From Methylopila sp. M107 (lineage in GTDB: Bacteria > Pseudomonadota > Alphaproteobacteria > Rhizobiales > Methylopilaceae), in the NCBI RefSeq assembly GCF_000384475.1, contig NZ_ARWB01000001.1:1282176-1346175 (forward strand): a stretch of DNA of 64,000 bases, read 5' to 3'. Shown here piece by piece: positions 51,699 to 56,767 of this stretch (positions are counted from its first letter, which is position 1; the number at the start of each line of letters is the position of its first letter). Both the position numbers and the translations under genes were made by a program. The notes beneath the pieces were generated by a model. It had not been told where the DNA came from. It searched no databases and saw nothing but the letters and a program-made list of their open reading frames with translations.

Positions 51699-52592
51699 AT
51701 GTCCGACGCCGAACCGATCCTCCACATGTTCACGCCGCTCGGCAAGACGAGCCCGTTCGACGTGAACATGGCGGTCGACGCGGGCTTCAAGACCATCGCC
51801 TACTACACGGGCGTCGAGCTGAAGGACGTCGTGCCGCTGACCCAGGACGCGATGTTCTCGCGCTCGCCGGACGACGCCAAGCGCACCGTTCTGTTCTTCG
51901 GCGGCAAGGACGCGAGCCTCGCGCTCGACCAGATGGCGGCGGCGGCGAGCGCGCTGTTCCCGCCCTTCGAGATTTCGCTGTTCGCCGACCCCTCGGGCGC
52001 CTTCACCACCGCCGCCGCCATGATCGCCGAGGTCGAGCAGGAACTGCGGAAGACGCGGCCCGACGGCCTCAAGGGCGTGAAGGTCCAGGTCTACGGCGCG
52101 ACCGGCATCATCGGCGGCATCGCGGCCGTGATCGCGGCGCAGGCCGGCGCCGAAGTGACGATCGTCAGCCACCTCGTCATCGAGGACGTCGAGGCCAAGG
52201 CGATCGATTCGAAGAAGCGTTTTGGGGTGAAGCTCCACTGCGCTGTTGCGAAGAACGACGAGGAGAAGAAGGCGCTCGTCGCGGACGTCGAGGTGATCCT
52301 CACCTGCGCGTCCGCCGGCATCGAGGTGATCTCGACCGCCGTGCTGGAAGCCGCGACGAAGCTTTTGGTCGCGGCCGACATCAACGCCGTGCCGCCGAAC
52401 GGCGTCTCGGGCGTCGATTCGCATGCGGACGGCGTGAAGCTGCCGCATGGCGTCGGCATCGGGGCGCTGACGATCGGCCAGACCAAGTACCAGGTGCAGC
52501 ACCAGATCCTGAAGCGCATCCGCGACAGCGACAAAGCCCTCCAGGTCGGCATCATCGAGGCCTATGAGCTCGCCCGACAGCTCACGGCCTGA
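51699..52592 (+). CDS. mtdB: NAD(P)-dependent methylene-H4MPT dehydrogenase
   Basis: A 297-residue dehydrogenase that oxidises methylene-H4MPT to methenyl-H4MPT with NAD(P)+. N-terminal 'HMFTPLGKTSPFDVNMAVDA' and the Rossmann motif 'VQVYGATGIIGGIAAVIAAQ' are typical of MtdB; 'INAVPPNGVSGVDSHADGVK' follows. Length fits MtdB rather than the shorter MtdA of the serine/folate route. AGGAG precedes the ATG at 51699. Its 3' end overlaps the next gene by 29 bases, so the pair is co-translated. Confidence 0.96.
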   Translation: MSDAEPILHMFTPLGKTSPFDVNMAVDAGFKTIAYYTGVELKDVVPLTQDAMFSRSPDDAKRTVLFFGGKDASLALDQMAAAASALFPPFEISLFADPSGAFTTAAAMIAEVEQELRKTRPDGLKGVKVQVYGATGIIGGIAAVIAAQAGAEVTIVSHLVIEDVEAKAIDSKKRFGVKLHCAVAKNDEEKKALVADVEVILTCASAGIEVISTAVLEAATKLLVAADINAVPPNGVSGVDSHADGVKLPHGVGIGALTIGQTKYQVQHQILKRIRDSDKALQVGIIEAYELARQLTA

Positions 52593-54477
52593 AGCCTTCG
52601 ACCTCGCGGTCGTCGCGCTGTCGGCCCGGGCGCTTGCGGCTTCCGCCCGGCGGGCCGGGCTGAGGGCGCTTAGCGTCGACCTGTTCGCGGACGCCGACAC
52701 GCGGGAGCACGCCGCGCTCGCGGTGCGGGCCGACGCCAGCCGGCGAGGATTGGGATTCGACCGGAAATCGCTGATCGAAACGCTTGCGACGCACGCGCCG
52801 GCGGGGCTGCCGGTCGTGCTCGGCGCGGGCTTCGAGCATGCCCCGGCGCTGATGCGCGCGATCGCGGCGCGCAACCCGATTTTGGGCGCCACGCCCGATC
52901 AGGTGAAGCGGCTGAAGGACCCGTTCGCCTTCGCAGGCCTGCTGGGGGAGCTCGGCGTTCCGCATCCGCATATCCTGCGAACTTGTCTTCCCGGTTCCTC
53001 CTCCGCCAAGCGTGGGCTCTGCGAACGTCTCCGACCTGCCGTGTTCCCCTCCCCCTTGCGGGGAGGGGTTAGGGGTGGGGGTGGTTCAGAACTTGGCTCG
53101 CCGAGCGAAGCTGCTCTACGCCGAACCGGAGCGCTTCATCCTGAGGGACCCCCACCCCTAACCCCTCCCCGCAAGGGGGAGGGGGACGCCAGCGCGCCCT
53201 TTCTCGGAGACCTCGCGAAAAGGGAGGGTGGGACCATGGCGCGAGCCATGGCGGACGACGTCCCGCTCCAGGATGAGCGTCGGCCCAGAACGCAGGCGCT
53301 CTACGCCCTGCCCCCTCCACCGCCTTCGGCGGTCCCCCTCCCCCACTTCGCCGAGGAGGAAACGGGCGCCGCCTCCGCAGCGGCGCGTCTCCTTTCTTCC
53401 CCCTCTCCCCTCGCGGGAGAGGGTCGGGGTGAGGGGGCGCTTCAGGATGCGGCGCTAGCTGCGGCGTCGAGCTCGATCCTGAGCCGCCCCCTCATCCGAC
53501 CGGCGGCTGACGCCGCCAGCCACCTTCTCCCGCAAGGGGAGAAGGAAGAAGAGCTCTACGCCCTGCCCCCTCCACCGCCTTCGGCGGTCCCCCTCCCCCG
53601 CTTCGCGGAGGAGGATCAGGAAGAGCCCGATCAGTTCGCTCCGATCCACAACCGTCATGCCCGCGCTTGCGCGGGTATCCACGACTTGGGCGTAGGGCTT
53701 CACGATCCCGGAAAGTCGTGGATACCCAGCTCCGCCGGGCATGACAGCGTGTGGCTCTCCAAGCGCGCCGGCGCGTCGGGCGGCGCGCATATCCGGTCCG
53801 GAGACCGCATCCCGCCGACCAAAGGCCGCTACCTGCAGGCCTTCGTCCCCGGCCGCGCCGTCTCGGCGCTGTTCCTCGCGGACGGTCGCTCAGCCCGCAT
53901 CGTCGGCTTCTCCGAGCAATGGGCCGACCACACCCATCGCGCGCCCTTCCGCTACGGCGGCGCCGTCGGTCCGATCGCCCTTCCCGCCCCGCTTGGCGAA
54001 ACCATCGCGTCGGCGCTCGACCGGATCGTCGCGGCGACCGCCCTCACCGGCCTCGCCAGCGCCGACATGATCGTCTCCGACGACGGCGCCTCGTTCCACC
54101 TGCTCGAGATCAACCCCCGCCCGGGCGCGACGCTCGACGTGTTCGACCACGACGAGACCTCCCTGCTCCGCCTCCACATCGAGGCCTGCGCCGGCCGCCT
54201 GCCCGCCGCCCTGCCCTCGCCTGCCGAGGCGCGCGCGGCGGCGGTGGTCTACGCCGAACGCCCGGTCCAGATCGTCACGCTACGAAGGCCGCTCTGGACG
54301 GCGGATTGGCCTTCGTGCGACGAGACGCTTCCCGCCGGCGCGCCGGTCTGCACGGCGCTGGCCTCTGCGCCGACGCCGGCTGAGGCCTACGCGCGTGTCA
54401 CGGAGCGCCGCGCCGCGCTCCTCGCCTCCCTTCGCGACCTTGCGAGGTCGCCCACGAACGCCATGGTGCCCGCATGA
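52564..54477 (+). CDS. ATP-grasp protein of the H4MPT cluster, interrupted in frame by repeats
   Basis: A 637-codon frame. Residues 1-140 and about 395-637 match an ATP-grasp protein of methylotroph H4MPT clusters: N-terminal pre-ATP-grasp ('VVALSARALAASARRAG', 'GATPDQVKRLKDPFAFAGLL'), then the lysine/glycine loop 'WLSKRAGASGGAHIR' and the C-terminal metal-binding 'FHLLEINPRPGATLDVFDHD'. Between them about 255 codons (roughly 52983-53748) are made wholly of interspersed palindromic repeats translated as Pro/Arg/Ala-rich sequence with no stop. Without it the protein would be about 380 residues, normal for the family. The stop overlaps the mch start (ATGA). It may still fold with a disordered loop, or be inactive; substrate probably a pterin or furan cofactor intermediate. 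Confidence 0.85.
   Translation: MSSPDSSRPEAFDLAVVALSARALAASARRAGLRALSVDLFADADTREHAALAVRADASRRGLGFDRKSLIETLATHAPAGLPVVLGAGFEHAPALMRAIAARNPILGATPDQVKRLKDPFAFAGLLGELGVPHPHILRTCLPGSSSAKRGLCERLRPAVFPSPLRGGVRGGGGSELGSPSEAALRRTGALHPEGPPPLTPPRKGEGDASAPFLGDLAKREGGTMARAMADDVPLQDERRPRTQALYALPPPPPSAVPLPHFAEEETGAASAAARLLSSPSPLAGEGRGEGALQDAALAAASSSILSRPLIRPAADAASHLLPQGEKEEELYALPPPPPSAVPLPRFAEEDQEEPDQFAPIHNRHARACAGIHDLGVGLHDPGKSWIPSSAGHDSVWLSKRAGASGGAHIRSGDRIPPTKGRYLQAFVPGRAVSALFLADGRSARIVGFSEQWADHTHRAPFRYGGAVGPIALPAPLGETIASALDRIVAATALTGLASADMIVSDDGASFHLLEINPRPGATLDVFDHDETSLLRLHIEACAGRLPAALPSPAEARAAAVVYAERPVQIVTLRRPLWTADWPSCDETLPAGAPVCTALASAPTPAEAYARVTERRAALLASLRDLARSPTNAMVPA
53045..53186. repeat. Interspersed repeat, family A, inside a coding frame
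   Basis: A 142-bp element with nearly perfect 38-bp inverted terminal arms (53045-53082 and 53149-53186, differing by one inserted G) around a 66-bp centre. A close copy is at 55644-55780. The layout is that of a small non-autonomous mobile or REP-like element. Confidence 0.9.
53229..53361. repeat. Interspersed repeat, family B, inside a coding frame
   Basis: Matches the inner and right part of the family B elements at 32461-32631 and 44939-45150 (GGGACCATGGCGCGAGCCAT, CCCCCTCCACCGCCTTCGGC, CGCCGAGGAGGA). Confidence 0.8.
53396..53549. repeat. Interspersed repeat, family C variant, inside a coding frame
   Basis: Palindromic element with ends CTTCCCCCTCTCCCC / GGGGAGAAGGAAG and inner GGGGTGAGGGGGC / GCCCCCTCATCC, related to but distinct from the copies at 41404 and 48555. 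Confidence 0.75.
53561..53620. repeat. Interspersed repeat, family B fragment, inside a coding frame
   Basis: A 60-bp right-end fragment of family B (CTCTACGCCCTGCCCCCTCC through CGCGGAGGAGGATC), nearly identical to 53300-53361, so it looks like a second insertion or a duplication. Confidence 0.8.
53652..53748. repeat. Interspersed repeat, family D variant, inside a coding frame
   Basis: GTCATGCCCGCGCTTGCGCG...ATCCACGACT and its rough complement GTGGATACCC...CCGGGCATGAC form a palindrome ending at 53748, the exact point where the ATP-grasp coding sequence resumes. Confidence 0.8.
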
Positions 54478-55436
54478 CCGCAAGACCCAGCGTCGGAACC
54501 CTCTCCGCGCCCCTCGTCGAAGCGCTGGTGCGCGACGCCGACGTGCTGCGCCTCGGAATCGAAAAGACCTCGACCGGCGCCACCATCGTCGACGGCGGCA
54601 TCAACGTCCGCGGCGGCCTCGAAGCCGGCCGGCGCATCACGGAAATCTGCCTCGGCGGCCTCGGCGCCGCGAATTTCGTTTCCGACTCGCGCTTCCCCGG
54701 CTGGACGACGGCGATCCAGATCACCACCAAGGACCCGGTGACGGCGTGCCTCGGCAGCCAGTACGCCGGGTGGAGCCTTTCGGAAGGCGACTTCTTTGCG
54801 CTCGGCTCCGGCCCCGCCCGCGCGCTCTGGGCCAAGGAAGAGCTCTTCGGCGAGCTCGGCTACAAGGATTCGTCCGCGACGACCGCGGCGCTGGTGCTCG
54901 AGACGGACAAGCGCCCGCCGGACACGCTGGTCGCGTTTATCGCCAAGGAACTCGGGATTTCCGAGGACAAGCTCACCCTGATTCTCACCCCCACCACGAG
55001 CCTCGCCGGCTCCGTGCAGGTCGTCGGGCGGGTGCTCGAAGTCGCGCTGCACAAGGCGCATGCGCTGCACTTCCCGCTCGACCGCATCGTCGACGGCACG
55101 GGCCTCGCACCGGTCGCCCCGCCGGCCGCCGACTTCCTCGGCGGCATGGGCCGGACCAACGACGCGGTGCTCTATGGCGGCCAGATTTCGCTCTACGTGG
55201 AAGGCCCCGAGGACGAGGCGAAGAAGCTCGCCGAAGGCCTGCCCTCCTCCACCTCGCGCGACCACGGCCGCCCGTTCGGCGAGGTGTTCGCCGGTTACAA
55301 CTACGATTTCTACGCCTGCGACGCCGGGCTGTTCTCGCCCGCCAAGGTCGCGGTGACGGCGCTTTCGACGGGCAAGACGTTCTTCGCCGGCGAATACGAG
55401 CCGGCGCTGATCGAGAAGTCGTTCTCGGGCGCGTGA
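54474..55436 (+). CDS. mch: Methenyl-H4MPT cyclohydrolase
   Basis: A 320-residue enzyme that hydrolyses methenyl-H4MPT to formyl-H4MPT. Family segments: 'GTLSAPLVEALVRDADVLRL', 'TTKDPVTACLGSQYAGWSLS', 'AVLVLETDKRPPD'-like 'AALVLETDKRPPDTLVAFIA', 'MGRTNDAVLYGGQISLYVEG' and 'PFGEVFAGYNYDFYACDAGL'. Length fits. The start codon overlaps the stop of the repeat-bearing ATP-grasp gene by four bases, so its translation probably depends on ribosomes that finish that gene. A 419-bp repeat-filled gap follows. Confidence 0.96.
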   Translation: MTARPSVGTLSAPLVEALVRDADVLRLGIEKTSTGATIVDGGINVRGGLEAGRRITEICLGGLGAANFVSDSRFPGWTTAIQITTKDPVTACLGSQYAGWSLSEGDFFALGSGPARALWAKEELFGELGYKDSSATTAALVLETDKRPPDTLVAFIAKELGISEDKLTLILTPTTSLAGSVQVVGRVLEVALHKAHALHFPLDRIVDGTGLAPVAPPAADFLGGMGRTNDAVLYGGQISLYVEGPEDEAKKLAEGLPSSTSRDHGRPFGEVFAGYNYDFYACDAGLFSPAKVAVTALSTGKTFFAGEYEPALIEKSFSGA

Positions 55437-55507
55437 GGTCGGGGATCAGCGAACTGCGTGCATCGAGACGGCCCGCAGAACATCTCTGGATCAAGCGAAA
55501 TCAAACC

Positions 55508-55606
55508 GTCATTCCGGCCGAAGGGCCGGAATCCAGAAACTCAAACGCTCCTGAGCGTAGTCGAGACCGCAGTGGATCTGGATTCCGGCCCTTCGGCCGG
55601 AATGAC
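55508..55606. repeat. Interspersed repeat, family D
   Basis: Perfect 28-bp inverted arms (55508-55535 and 55579-55606) around a 43-bp centre; each arm itself contains the small palindrome CCGGCCGAAGGGCCGG. Confidence 0.9.
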
Positions 55607-55643
55607 AGTTTTGCTCGAAGAGGTCGCGCTCGGCCCTTCCTGT

Positions 55644-55780
55644 TCCCCTCTCCCTTGCGGGGAGGGGTTAGGGGTGGGGGTGGTTCAGAACATGGCGCCG
55701 AGGGCTACGCTGCTCTGCGCCGCCGGCAAGCGCTTCATCCTGAGGGACCCCCACCCCTAACCCCTCCCCGCAAGGGGGAC
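55644..55780. repeat. Interspersed repeat, family A
   Basis: A 137-bp copy of the element at 53045-53186, with arms TTGCGGGGAGGGGTTAGGGG and its complement and the shared centre end AGCGCTTCATCCTGAGGGAC. Confidence 0.9.
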
Positions 55781-55802
55781 AGCGACAGCGCTCCTTCCGG
55801 AA

Positions 55803-55846
55803 GACGATCCCGGATCGGCCTTTCGGCCGTCCGGGATGACGACTAA
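55803..55846. repeat. Short D-like palindrome before the RimK-like gene
   Basis: CCCGGATCGGCC TTTCG GGCCGTCCGGG-type hairpin ending with GATGACGAC, ten bases before the ATG of the RimK-like gene. Confidence 0.6.
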
Positions 55847-55855
55847 GAAACGCCG

Positions 55856-56767
55856 ATGATCCTCGAAGACGCCGTCGTCATCTTCACCGAAATGGCCGAC
55901 TGGCACTCCAAGGGCCTCGCGGCCGCCTGCGCGCGCGAGGGGCTGCGACCGCAGATCCTCTCGATGAACGACTGCGGCTTCGACCTTGCGACGGGCCGCC
56001 CCGGTCTGATCTTTCCGGGCCTCGACGGCCGCCATCCCGGCGCGATCTTCGTGCGCCTCATCGCGGATGGGACGACCGAGCAGATCACCGCCCGTCTCGG
56101 CCTGCTCCACGCCGCCCGCGCTCTCGGAATCGAGGTGGTGAACGACGCCCGCGCCATCGAGGTCTGCGTCGACAAGTCGATGACGACCTTCTGCCTCGCG
56201 CAGGCGGGGCTGCCGACGCCCGCGAGCTTCGTGGTCGAGAAGCGCGACGTCGCGCAGGCCCGCTTCGACGCGTTCGGACGCGACGCCGTGCTGAAGCCGC
56301 TCTTCGGCGCTCAGGGCAAAGGGCTGGTGCGCTTGAAACCCGGCGACAGGATGCCGGAGCCGGAGGCCGTCGACGGCGTCTATTACGTGCAGGAGTTCGT
56401 CGAGAGCCGCGGATCGCGGAAGAACGGCGGCGCGCATGACTGGCGGGTGTTCGTGCTCGACGGCCGGCCGCTCGCGGCCATGATCCGCCGTTCCGACGGC
56501 TGGGTGACGAACATTTTTCAGGGCGCCGAAGGCGAAGCCGCGGACGTCTCGGGCGAAGCCGGCGCGCTCGGCGTGCGCGCCGCGGCGGCGGTCGGCGCGG
56601 CGTATGCCGGCGTCGACCTGATCGAGGACGAGGACGGCCGCTTCCTCGTGCTCGAAGTGAACTCCATGCCCGCCTGGAAGGGCCTTCAGAAGGCGAACGG
56701 GATCGACGTCGCGGCGGCGCTCGCGCGCGACCTCGCCCGCCGGCTCGCCCGCGCCGATGCCGCGTAA
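55856..56767 (+). CDS. RimK/MptN-like ATP-grasp glutamate ligase of the H4MPT cluster
   Basis: A 303-residue ATP-grasp ligase of the RimK branch: 'ARAIEVCVDKSMTTFCLAQA', the Lys-binding 'DAVLKPLFGAQGKGLVRLK', 'YYVQEFVESRG' and the metal-binding 'EDEDGRFLVLEVNSMPAWKG'. In methanogens MptN adds alpha-linked glutamate to tetrahydromethanopterin; the methylotroph homologue in this place of the cluster probably glutamylates the bacterial cofactor. Its last 11 bases overlap the CitG-like gene. Confidence 0.88.
   Translation: MILEDAVVIFTEMADWHSKGLAAACAREGLRPQILSMNDCGFDLATGRPGLIFPGLDGRHPGAIFVRLIADGTTEQITARLGLLHAARALGIEVVNDARAIEVCVDKSMTTFCLAQAGLPTPASFVVEKRDVAQARFDAFGRDAVLKPLFGAQGKGLVRLKPGDRMPEPEAVDGVYYVQEFVESRGSRKNGGAHDWRVFVLDGRPLAAMIRRSDGWVTNIFQGAEGEAADVSGEAGALGVRAAAAVGAAYAGVDLIEDEDGRFLVLEVNSMPAWKGLQKANGIDVAAALARDLARRLARADAA

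Follow-up and report, generated by a model that had tools for sequence, protein, structure and literature searches.

How can a C1-coenzyme gene take up about 0.77 kb of dispersed palindromic repeats and still be open from start to stop? The question is posed by a 64,000-nucleotide stretch of the Methylopila sp. M107 genome (the window, meaning that whole stretch; the genome is G000 below), in which six repeat pieces from four palindromic families (A, B, C, and D) make up an insert between the two halves of an ATP-grasp_3 ligase gene. The answer favored here, at a probability of roughly 0.83, is that these are tolerated, translated in-frame insertions in a permissive loop, like the Rickettsia palindromic elements (RPEs) and the intragenic repetitive extragenic palindromes (REPs) of other bacteria. 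Genomes are designated G and loci L throughout. The features concerned are as follows.

52564..54477, plus strand: ATP-grasp_3 ligase gene with repeat insert, probable myfA/orfY, 637 codons (from gene order, the ATP-grasp_3 domain, and excerpts of PMC8141765)
52564..52982, plus strand: N-terminal host part, conserved across 14/14 aligned relatives
about 52991-53016, plus strand: left-end fragment of a B element, scoring 40 against an intact copy in L065
53042..53188, plus strand: A element, an inverted repeat with 47-nt arms that are 91% complementary
about 53222..53360, plus strand: B element, from stacked blastn matches; the left edge may extend to about 53199
53395..53551, plus strand: C element, palindromic, from stacked blastn matches
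53553..53617, plus strand: right half of a B element, its end pairing with the fragment at 52991-53016
53651..53748, plus strand: D element, resembling a head-to-head dimer of CGTC-tagged REPs (as defined in excerpts of PMC3733652)
53749..54477, plus strand: C-terminal host part with the ATP-grasp_3 core, from a profile match and alignment to relatives
54474..55436, plus strand: mch, its start codon overlapping the ligase stop (ATGA)

An open frame through the repeats

The ligase frame encodes 637 amino acids with zero internal stops, and an earlier note on this DNA was right that palindromic repeats lie inside it. Codons 140 to 395 (about 256 codons) have no counterpart in relatives. Taking them away leaves 381 codons, against 365 to 409 amino acids in 14 relatives, which bears out the claim that the gene minus its insert is of family size. 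Element edges were placed from stacked blastn matches within 864 kb of the same genome (the window plus 40 segments of 20 kb; 19% of the genome). Most matches to D stop within 53745-53748, directly ahead of the conserved WLSKR strand, so that host sequence does resume at the end of D, as had been claimed. By the mapped edges, the insert occupies the linker that precedes the ATP-binding strand, and the gene around it still appears functional.

The earlier note had described five elements lying end to end. Its four families stand, but the pieces number six, the extra one being the left end of B, and they are parted by four spacers (53017-53041, 53189-53221, 53361-53394, and 53618-53650), none of which has a repeat of its own by blastn in the 864 kb; the third has a lone 26-nt match, in L038. 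Scores of the small B fragment are 40 with the L065 copy and 24 to 35 with four others, the maximum over 200 shuffles being 27; in the predicted RNA secondary structure, the right end of the B half is its pairing partner. A single outer B, into which A, an inner B, and C have been inserted, probably supplied both of these B pieces as its two ends, and D adjoins it. With its 712 bp, this cluster ranks first in length among the 62 palindromic clusters sampled (median, 155 bp), and 1 of 158 random intervals of matched length reached the palindrome threshold. An Rfam search gave 0 matches.

Why is such a pile open at all? Over the 765-nt insert the frame in use is the only one of six that is free of stops; the other five contain 2, 4, 4, 6, and 8. 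Element by element, the open frames out of six are 1 for A, 1 for C, 3 for D, 4 for B, and 5 for the B half. The coding score, which measures host codon bias, is -0.02 in the insert versus 0.19 and 0.27 in the flanks. Because host codon bias is absent from it, the insert was not coding earlier; formerly noncoding sequence is now held open. Its translation consists of Ala (15%), Pro (15%), Leu (11%), Gly (11%), and Arg (8%) among others, with a net charge of -7, a composition that modifies the earlier description of the segment as Pro/Arg-rich.

The predicted RNA fold of the insert is very strong (-465 kcal/mol; z, -14.8; 0 of 20 shuffles equally low). Could the insert therefore remain in the mRNA and be bypassed by the ribosome over its hairpins, giving a protein of normal length? 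According to excerpts of PMC6649704, this kind of bypassing does occur over palindromic inserts in mitochondrial genes of Magnusiomyces. Bypassing, however, would require neither one stop-free frame out of six nor the in-frame inserts present in other genes of this genome (described below), and it is judged very unlikely.

Relatives with a short linker

A homologue search over 41 genomes matched 16, namely, the window's own and 15 others, of which 14 have a continuous frame. In all 14 of these, the linker from the HP (or RP) motif to the LSKR-type strand is 10 to 15 residues long, versus 262 in the window (counted by hand from the alignment in G003, G007, G010, G012, and G027, giving 13, 10, 10, 10, and 12). 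The 15th relative, Hansschlegelia zhihuaiae (G001, L032), was excluded from the alignment for a run of N inside the linker, at L032 4459-4582. This is the same linker that holds the window's insert, and the sequence preceding the run is 98% identical over 44 nt to a further palindromic family, E, of the window's genome. The earlier note had counted an unrelated insert at this place in a homologue as a point against itself. H. zhihuaiae comes part of the way, with another family and an assembly gap in its linker, yet we interpret it as a permissive site reused by a different family and not as evidence against insertion.

Integrity and identity of the ligase

Is the ligase with so large an insert decaying? 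Among columns invariant in 11 genus relatives, it keeps 39/39 in the N half and 75/78 in the C half (114/117 in all); among those invariant in all 14 relatives, it keeps 19/19 and 41/42 (60/61). When each of the 11 other genus members was left out in turn, 0 to 3 invariant residues were lost in the N half and 0 to 4 in the C half, and because these losses are comparable, the window's ligase is not decaying faster than its relatives. It is also single copy, the C part having one genomic place (18/18 candidates scored).

These counts bear on the proposal that the ligase is either a pseudogene or the sum of two halves with separate starts. The second version would be suited by a GTG in frame at 53749, immediately ahead of the C part, and by the H. 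zhihuaiae ligase halves, which lie in different frames across the gap; that gap is of undefined length, however, and hence uninformative. Against both versions, the 765-nt insert is stop-free although separate halves need no open link, and conserved residues are kept on both sides of it. Both versions are very unlikely.

Which ligase is it? The gene order (beta-RFAP synthase family, mtdB, ligase, mch, MptN-like ligase) is that of a formaldehyde-oxidation cofactor cluster. The repeat-bearing protein matches ATP-grasp_3 above the cutoff, and every match in an NCBIfam search of it fell below the cutoff. MfnD_Meth matched a relative (L034) very weakly (E, 0.078; 12.4 bits; cutoff, 400) and is absent from the matches listed for the window's protein; the only match in a PDB search was a weak one to 3df7 (E, 0.0046). 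For the gene that follows mch (55856-56764), the best NCBIfam match is MptN_Meth, at 199 bits (cutoff, 350), and this gene is above the cutoff for the RimK family. Excerpts of PMC8141765 state that MyfB/Orf5 is 33% identical to MptN, that part of MyfA/OrfY is similar to MfnD, and that no myfA deletion was obtainable in one organism; an orfY deletion strain of M. flagellatus is also described there. Because the MptN-like gene, of the MyfB/Orf5 type, is the one after mch, the repeat-bearing gene is probably myfA/orfY, predicted to encode the glutamate ligase that adds the second glutamate of methylofuran. Assignment of the repeat-bearing gene as myfB/orf5 was ruled out, the MptN-like/RimK match belonging to the gene after mch.

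Two features of the neighborhood may be added. The first 29 nt of the ligase gene (window positions 52564-52592) also form the end of mtdB, and a 337-bp palindromic repeat cluster at 55505-55841 separates mch from the MptN-like gene, the probable myfB.

In-frame repeats in other genes

The earlier note considered repeats in a needed gene to be rare. A codon-model scan of the 864 kb found the gene continuing in frame on both sides of 5 of the 62 palindromic clusters: those in the ligase, polA (L046), ileS (L072), a sulfur-transport gene (L039), and a citG-like gene (L053, with weaker flank scores). An ABC-transporter motif cluster (L039:3786-3894) that had passed the palindrome filter was removed and is not among the 62. 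Twenty further loci, a nonrandom sample chosen for repeat matches in long frames, added glyS, with two inserts (L141:3015-3113 and L141:3850-3965), and dnaE2, with a B element (L137:347-518). At least six conserved genes besides the ligase (polA, ileS, glyS, dnaE2, the sulfur transporter, and the citG-like gene) thus carry in-frame repeats in this same genome, and the word rare has to be given up. The ileS insert lies at L072:203-328, and polA has an A element (L046:16005-16154) in the linker after its 5'-nuclease part.

Three kinds of case were kept out of the intragenic count. At L051:12259-15360, a palindromic repeat joins the frame of an ABC permease to that of the next ATPase without a stop, possibly a gene fusion. 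The citG-like open reading frame (ORF; L053:4321-6018) carries repeat clusters toward both ends as well as in the middle; the outer ones, a D copy close to the start and a cluster close to the end, were not counted. Finally, the dnaE2 ORF has an A copy at codons 161 to 209, where the profile match starts only at residue 216.

What, then, keeps the ligase frame open? It had been proposed that the overlap with mch does so, since loss of frame would stop mch translation. The ATGA overlap is indeed present in the window and in 14 of 15 relatives (the exception is G008), as the note had it for the window. There is, however, no such overlap at the ends of polA, ileS, glyS, or the sulfur-transport gene, and in the citG-like gene an ATG comes 4 nt after the stop. 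Because the first four keep their frames without it, coupling to mch need not be invoked; selection acting on the catalytic C-terminal half is sufficient, and the overlap may add a penalty for frame loss.

A single common frame for the A repeats of polA, ileS, and the ligase was also considered and ruled out: the frame used in the ligase is matched only by the left arm of the polA copy and by the A copy in the dnaE2 ORF, and ileS and glyS use another.

Reuse of sites across the genus

Some of these sites are filled in other members of the genus as well. The polA linkers of G001, G003, and G007 resemble, by eye, decayed A copies, and the contigs of G009 stop at the polA linker. The dnaE2 site has no insert in 12/12 other genus genomes; about 25 residues past it, G001 has a run of N beside repeat-like sequence, with the frame lost after, and the linkers of G003 and G008 are longer.

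The clearest series are those of ileS and glyS. At the ileS site, between VAFP and SVVIW (loci L106 to L120 plus L072), 7 of 13 genus genomes have in-frame palindromes, from two families: A-type in G000, G009, G010, and G011 and CGTC/D-type in G002, G005, and G007. The G001 linker is longer and nonpalindromic, and the linkers of G003, G004, G006, G008, and G012 are short. The contigs of G009 and G011 end inside the palindrome, the G011 end (L120) in what we take to be sequence resembling a sequencing adapter. At the second glyS site, 7 of 13 are again filled, with the families assigned by eye from the translated motif: A-type in G000, G002, G006, and G010 and E-type in G001, G004, and G007. 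It is empty in G003, G005, G008, G009, G011, and G012. In the IleRS tree, G010 and G007 are sisters (97/95) and carry different families at both the ileS and the glyS sites, while G012, which branches next (86/85), has neither site filled. With gains, losses, and exchanges pooled, the minimum number of state changes is 5 for ileS (12 genomes, without G001) and 7 for glyS (12 genomes, without G003).

How far does this extend? In a wider-order comparison of ileS, 61 genomes were searched, 59 of them outside the genus, and the 16 with a single-block match through the site were examined. None of the 16 has a palindrome there; they have 35 to 53 residues between the anchors and self-complement scores of 6 to 12, compared with 26 to 36 for complete ileS inserts and 6 to 8 for the short (24-residue) loops of the genus. 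Because these 16 genomes have loops of such lengths without a palindrome, the ileS loop is length tolerant, and among the genomes examined, palindromes in it were seen in this genus only. No target duplication was evident by eye between filled and empty ileS sites, where the linker is too variable for a firm reading.

Two other explanations were considered. In one, the insert has been taken into use, its loop or its RNA hairpins altering the enzyme or tuning mch expression. The conserved overlap of mch with the ligase stop and the strong RNA fold would fit such a role. Yet no relative has the same insert, the inserts of other genes differ between sister species, and no codon adaptation is seen, making a role of this kind improbable. 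In the other, the insert is an artifact of assembling a repeat-rich stretch. The sequence is known from the assembly alone, and other assemblies (G009, G011, and G001) break or hold runs of N at such sites. On the other side, (i) the genome is one 4.45-Mb contig, (ii) complete inserts of the same class occur in ileS and glyS of independent assemblies, and (iii) 765 nt with one frame open throughout would be a rare outcome of a misjoin. An artifact is the least probable of the alternatives.

Relation to known palindromic elements

The closest precedents are the RPEs (Ogata 2000, 2002; Abergel 2006), palindromic elements of about 100 to 150 bp that are found in frame in conserved Rickettsia genes and tolerated there; a gmk gene carrying one is translated and its product is active, according to excerpts of PMC2229807, PMC6649704, and PMC3733652. 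Like them, the present repeats are dispersed, palindromic, and in frame in a conserved gene whose homologues lack the insert. Unlike the present case, the Rickettsia hosts are obligately intracellular, the sequences are other ones, and there is usually one element per site, whereas here four families share about 256 codons. By position, frame, and empty homologues, the window's insert is an RPE-like translated palindromic insert, its expression and the activity of its host enzyme being predicted from sequence.

Intragenic REPs provide the second precedent. The excerpted text of PMC3733652 reports them in polA, dnaE2, and tRNA synthetase genes of other, free-living bacteria, in clusters encoding 43 to 82 amino acids, with one same-site case, recB of two Xanthomonas. 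It gives the CGTC type as mostly alphaproteobacterial and without a known transposase and defines it by a CGTC tag, an 8- to 9-bp stem whose first pairs are A-T, a 4- to 5-nt loop, and a 3-nt tail close to CCA; in a dimer, two such units stand head to head with their tags outermost. The present repeats share with intragenic GTAG/CGTC REPs a free-living host and the same types of target, and element D resembles the CGTC type. Its left half reads CGTC, ATGCCCGCG, CTTG, CGCGGGTAT, and CCA, with one G-T pair in the stem, and is a CGTC REP unit by this definition; its right half, as the reverse complement, begins with TGTCATGCCC and ends with GGGTATCCA, in the same layout but with the tag TGTC and a less regular stem. 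A, B, and C (139 to 157 nt), in contrast, are longer inverted repeats that lack the tagged 20- to 40-bp form of reported REPs: GTAG is at none of their ends, and CGTC is at one end of A alone, where the edge is uncertain. Neither nesting nor a site filled by different families from one sister species to the next is described in the excerpts of PMC3733652. Matches to the Y1 transposase profile PF01797, that of the REP-associated tyrosine transposases (RAYTs), numbered 0 in G000 and were found in 1 of 13 genus genomes (G008) and in 5 of 14 control genomes.

What about other classes? Miniature inverted-repeat transposable elements (MITEs) of bacteria are, in excerpts of PMC2229807, small noncoding inverted-repeat elements that also form in-frame ORF fusions and usually make target duplications. 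The repeats studied here are likewise small noncoding inverted-repeat elements fused in frame to ORFs. MITEs differ in having terminal inverted repeats and, usually, the duplications not evident by eye at the ileS sites. Nematomorpha mitochondria have long inverted repeats inside functioning genes (excerpts of PMC6649704), a likeness in length and location; there, the perfect repeats belong to the genes' own coding sequence, whereas here copies of a dispersed family have been added. The palindromes in PMC3794950 are clustered regularly interspaced short palindromic repeats (CRISPR) or oriC and are not comparable. No report of in-gene repeats in this genus was found in the open-license PMC literature.

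How the insert may have arisen

A sequence of events can be postulated for the tolerated insertions. Short palindromic repeats without a transposase of their own would spread through the genome, with insertion presumably widespread, and some would land in the length-tolerant ligase loop. Those that broke the frame or brought in a stop would be removed by selection on the catalytic C-terminal half, and those that kept it would survive, translated as a flexible Ala/Pro/Gly-rich segment. An occupied loop would then be a larger neutral target, leading to a nested pile: a B element probably came first and would have served as a neutral landing place for A, the second B, and C, with D beside it. The ligase protein would be made and active, with the insert as an unfolded loop. 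No Y1 (RAYT) transposase that could move the repeats was found in G000.

Several observations weigh against this account. (i) The proposed outer B lacks its middle part, and because of this the nesting is something we infer. (ii) Three genus-invariant residues of the C half are altered in the window's ligase. (iii) The frame used here is not peculiar to the repeats: among other near-full A copies it is open in 7 of 11, and other genes use other frames. (iv) An AlphaFold model, built from a four-row alignment, has a mean predicted local distance difference test score of 37.8, too poor to show the loop.

A broader and more tentative idea, for which the odds are somewhat short of even, is that a few protein loops in this genus serve as landing pads. 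A loop that has come to tolerate a first in-frame palindrome would go on to receive, exchange, and nest unrelated families without a RAYT, fast enough to differ between sister species. The essential enzymes IleRS, GlyRS, and DNA polymerase I, along with the coenzyme ligase, would in this way be lengthened in a species-specific manner by about 30 to 256 residues, and some of the added segments would decay to ordinary linkers.

Significance

Translated palindromic repeats are of a kind already known from RPEs and intragenic REPs. What is new is the compound insert, in which four families together make up about 256 codons, with a C1-coenzyme gene as host; the finding, for two synthetase genes, that sister species have the same site filled by different families; and, probably, the nesting. 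The insert is several times larger than the 43 to 82 amino acids reported in the excerpts of PMC3733652. The genus, of a methylotroph type, offers a clean comparative series of filled and empty sites, with sister species that differ in the family occupying a given site. Because the enzymes can be assayed, three questions come within reach of experiment: by what means functional proteins accommodate selfish DNA, how repeats spread in the absence of a RAYT, and whether the added segments become useful linkers. There is a practical side as well, in that short-read assemblies break within essential genes at such sites. Overall, the ligase represents an extreme case of a little-studied route by which selfish DNA lengthens proteins.

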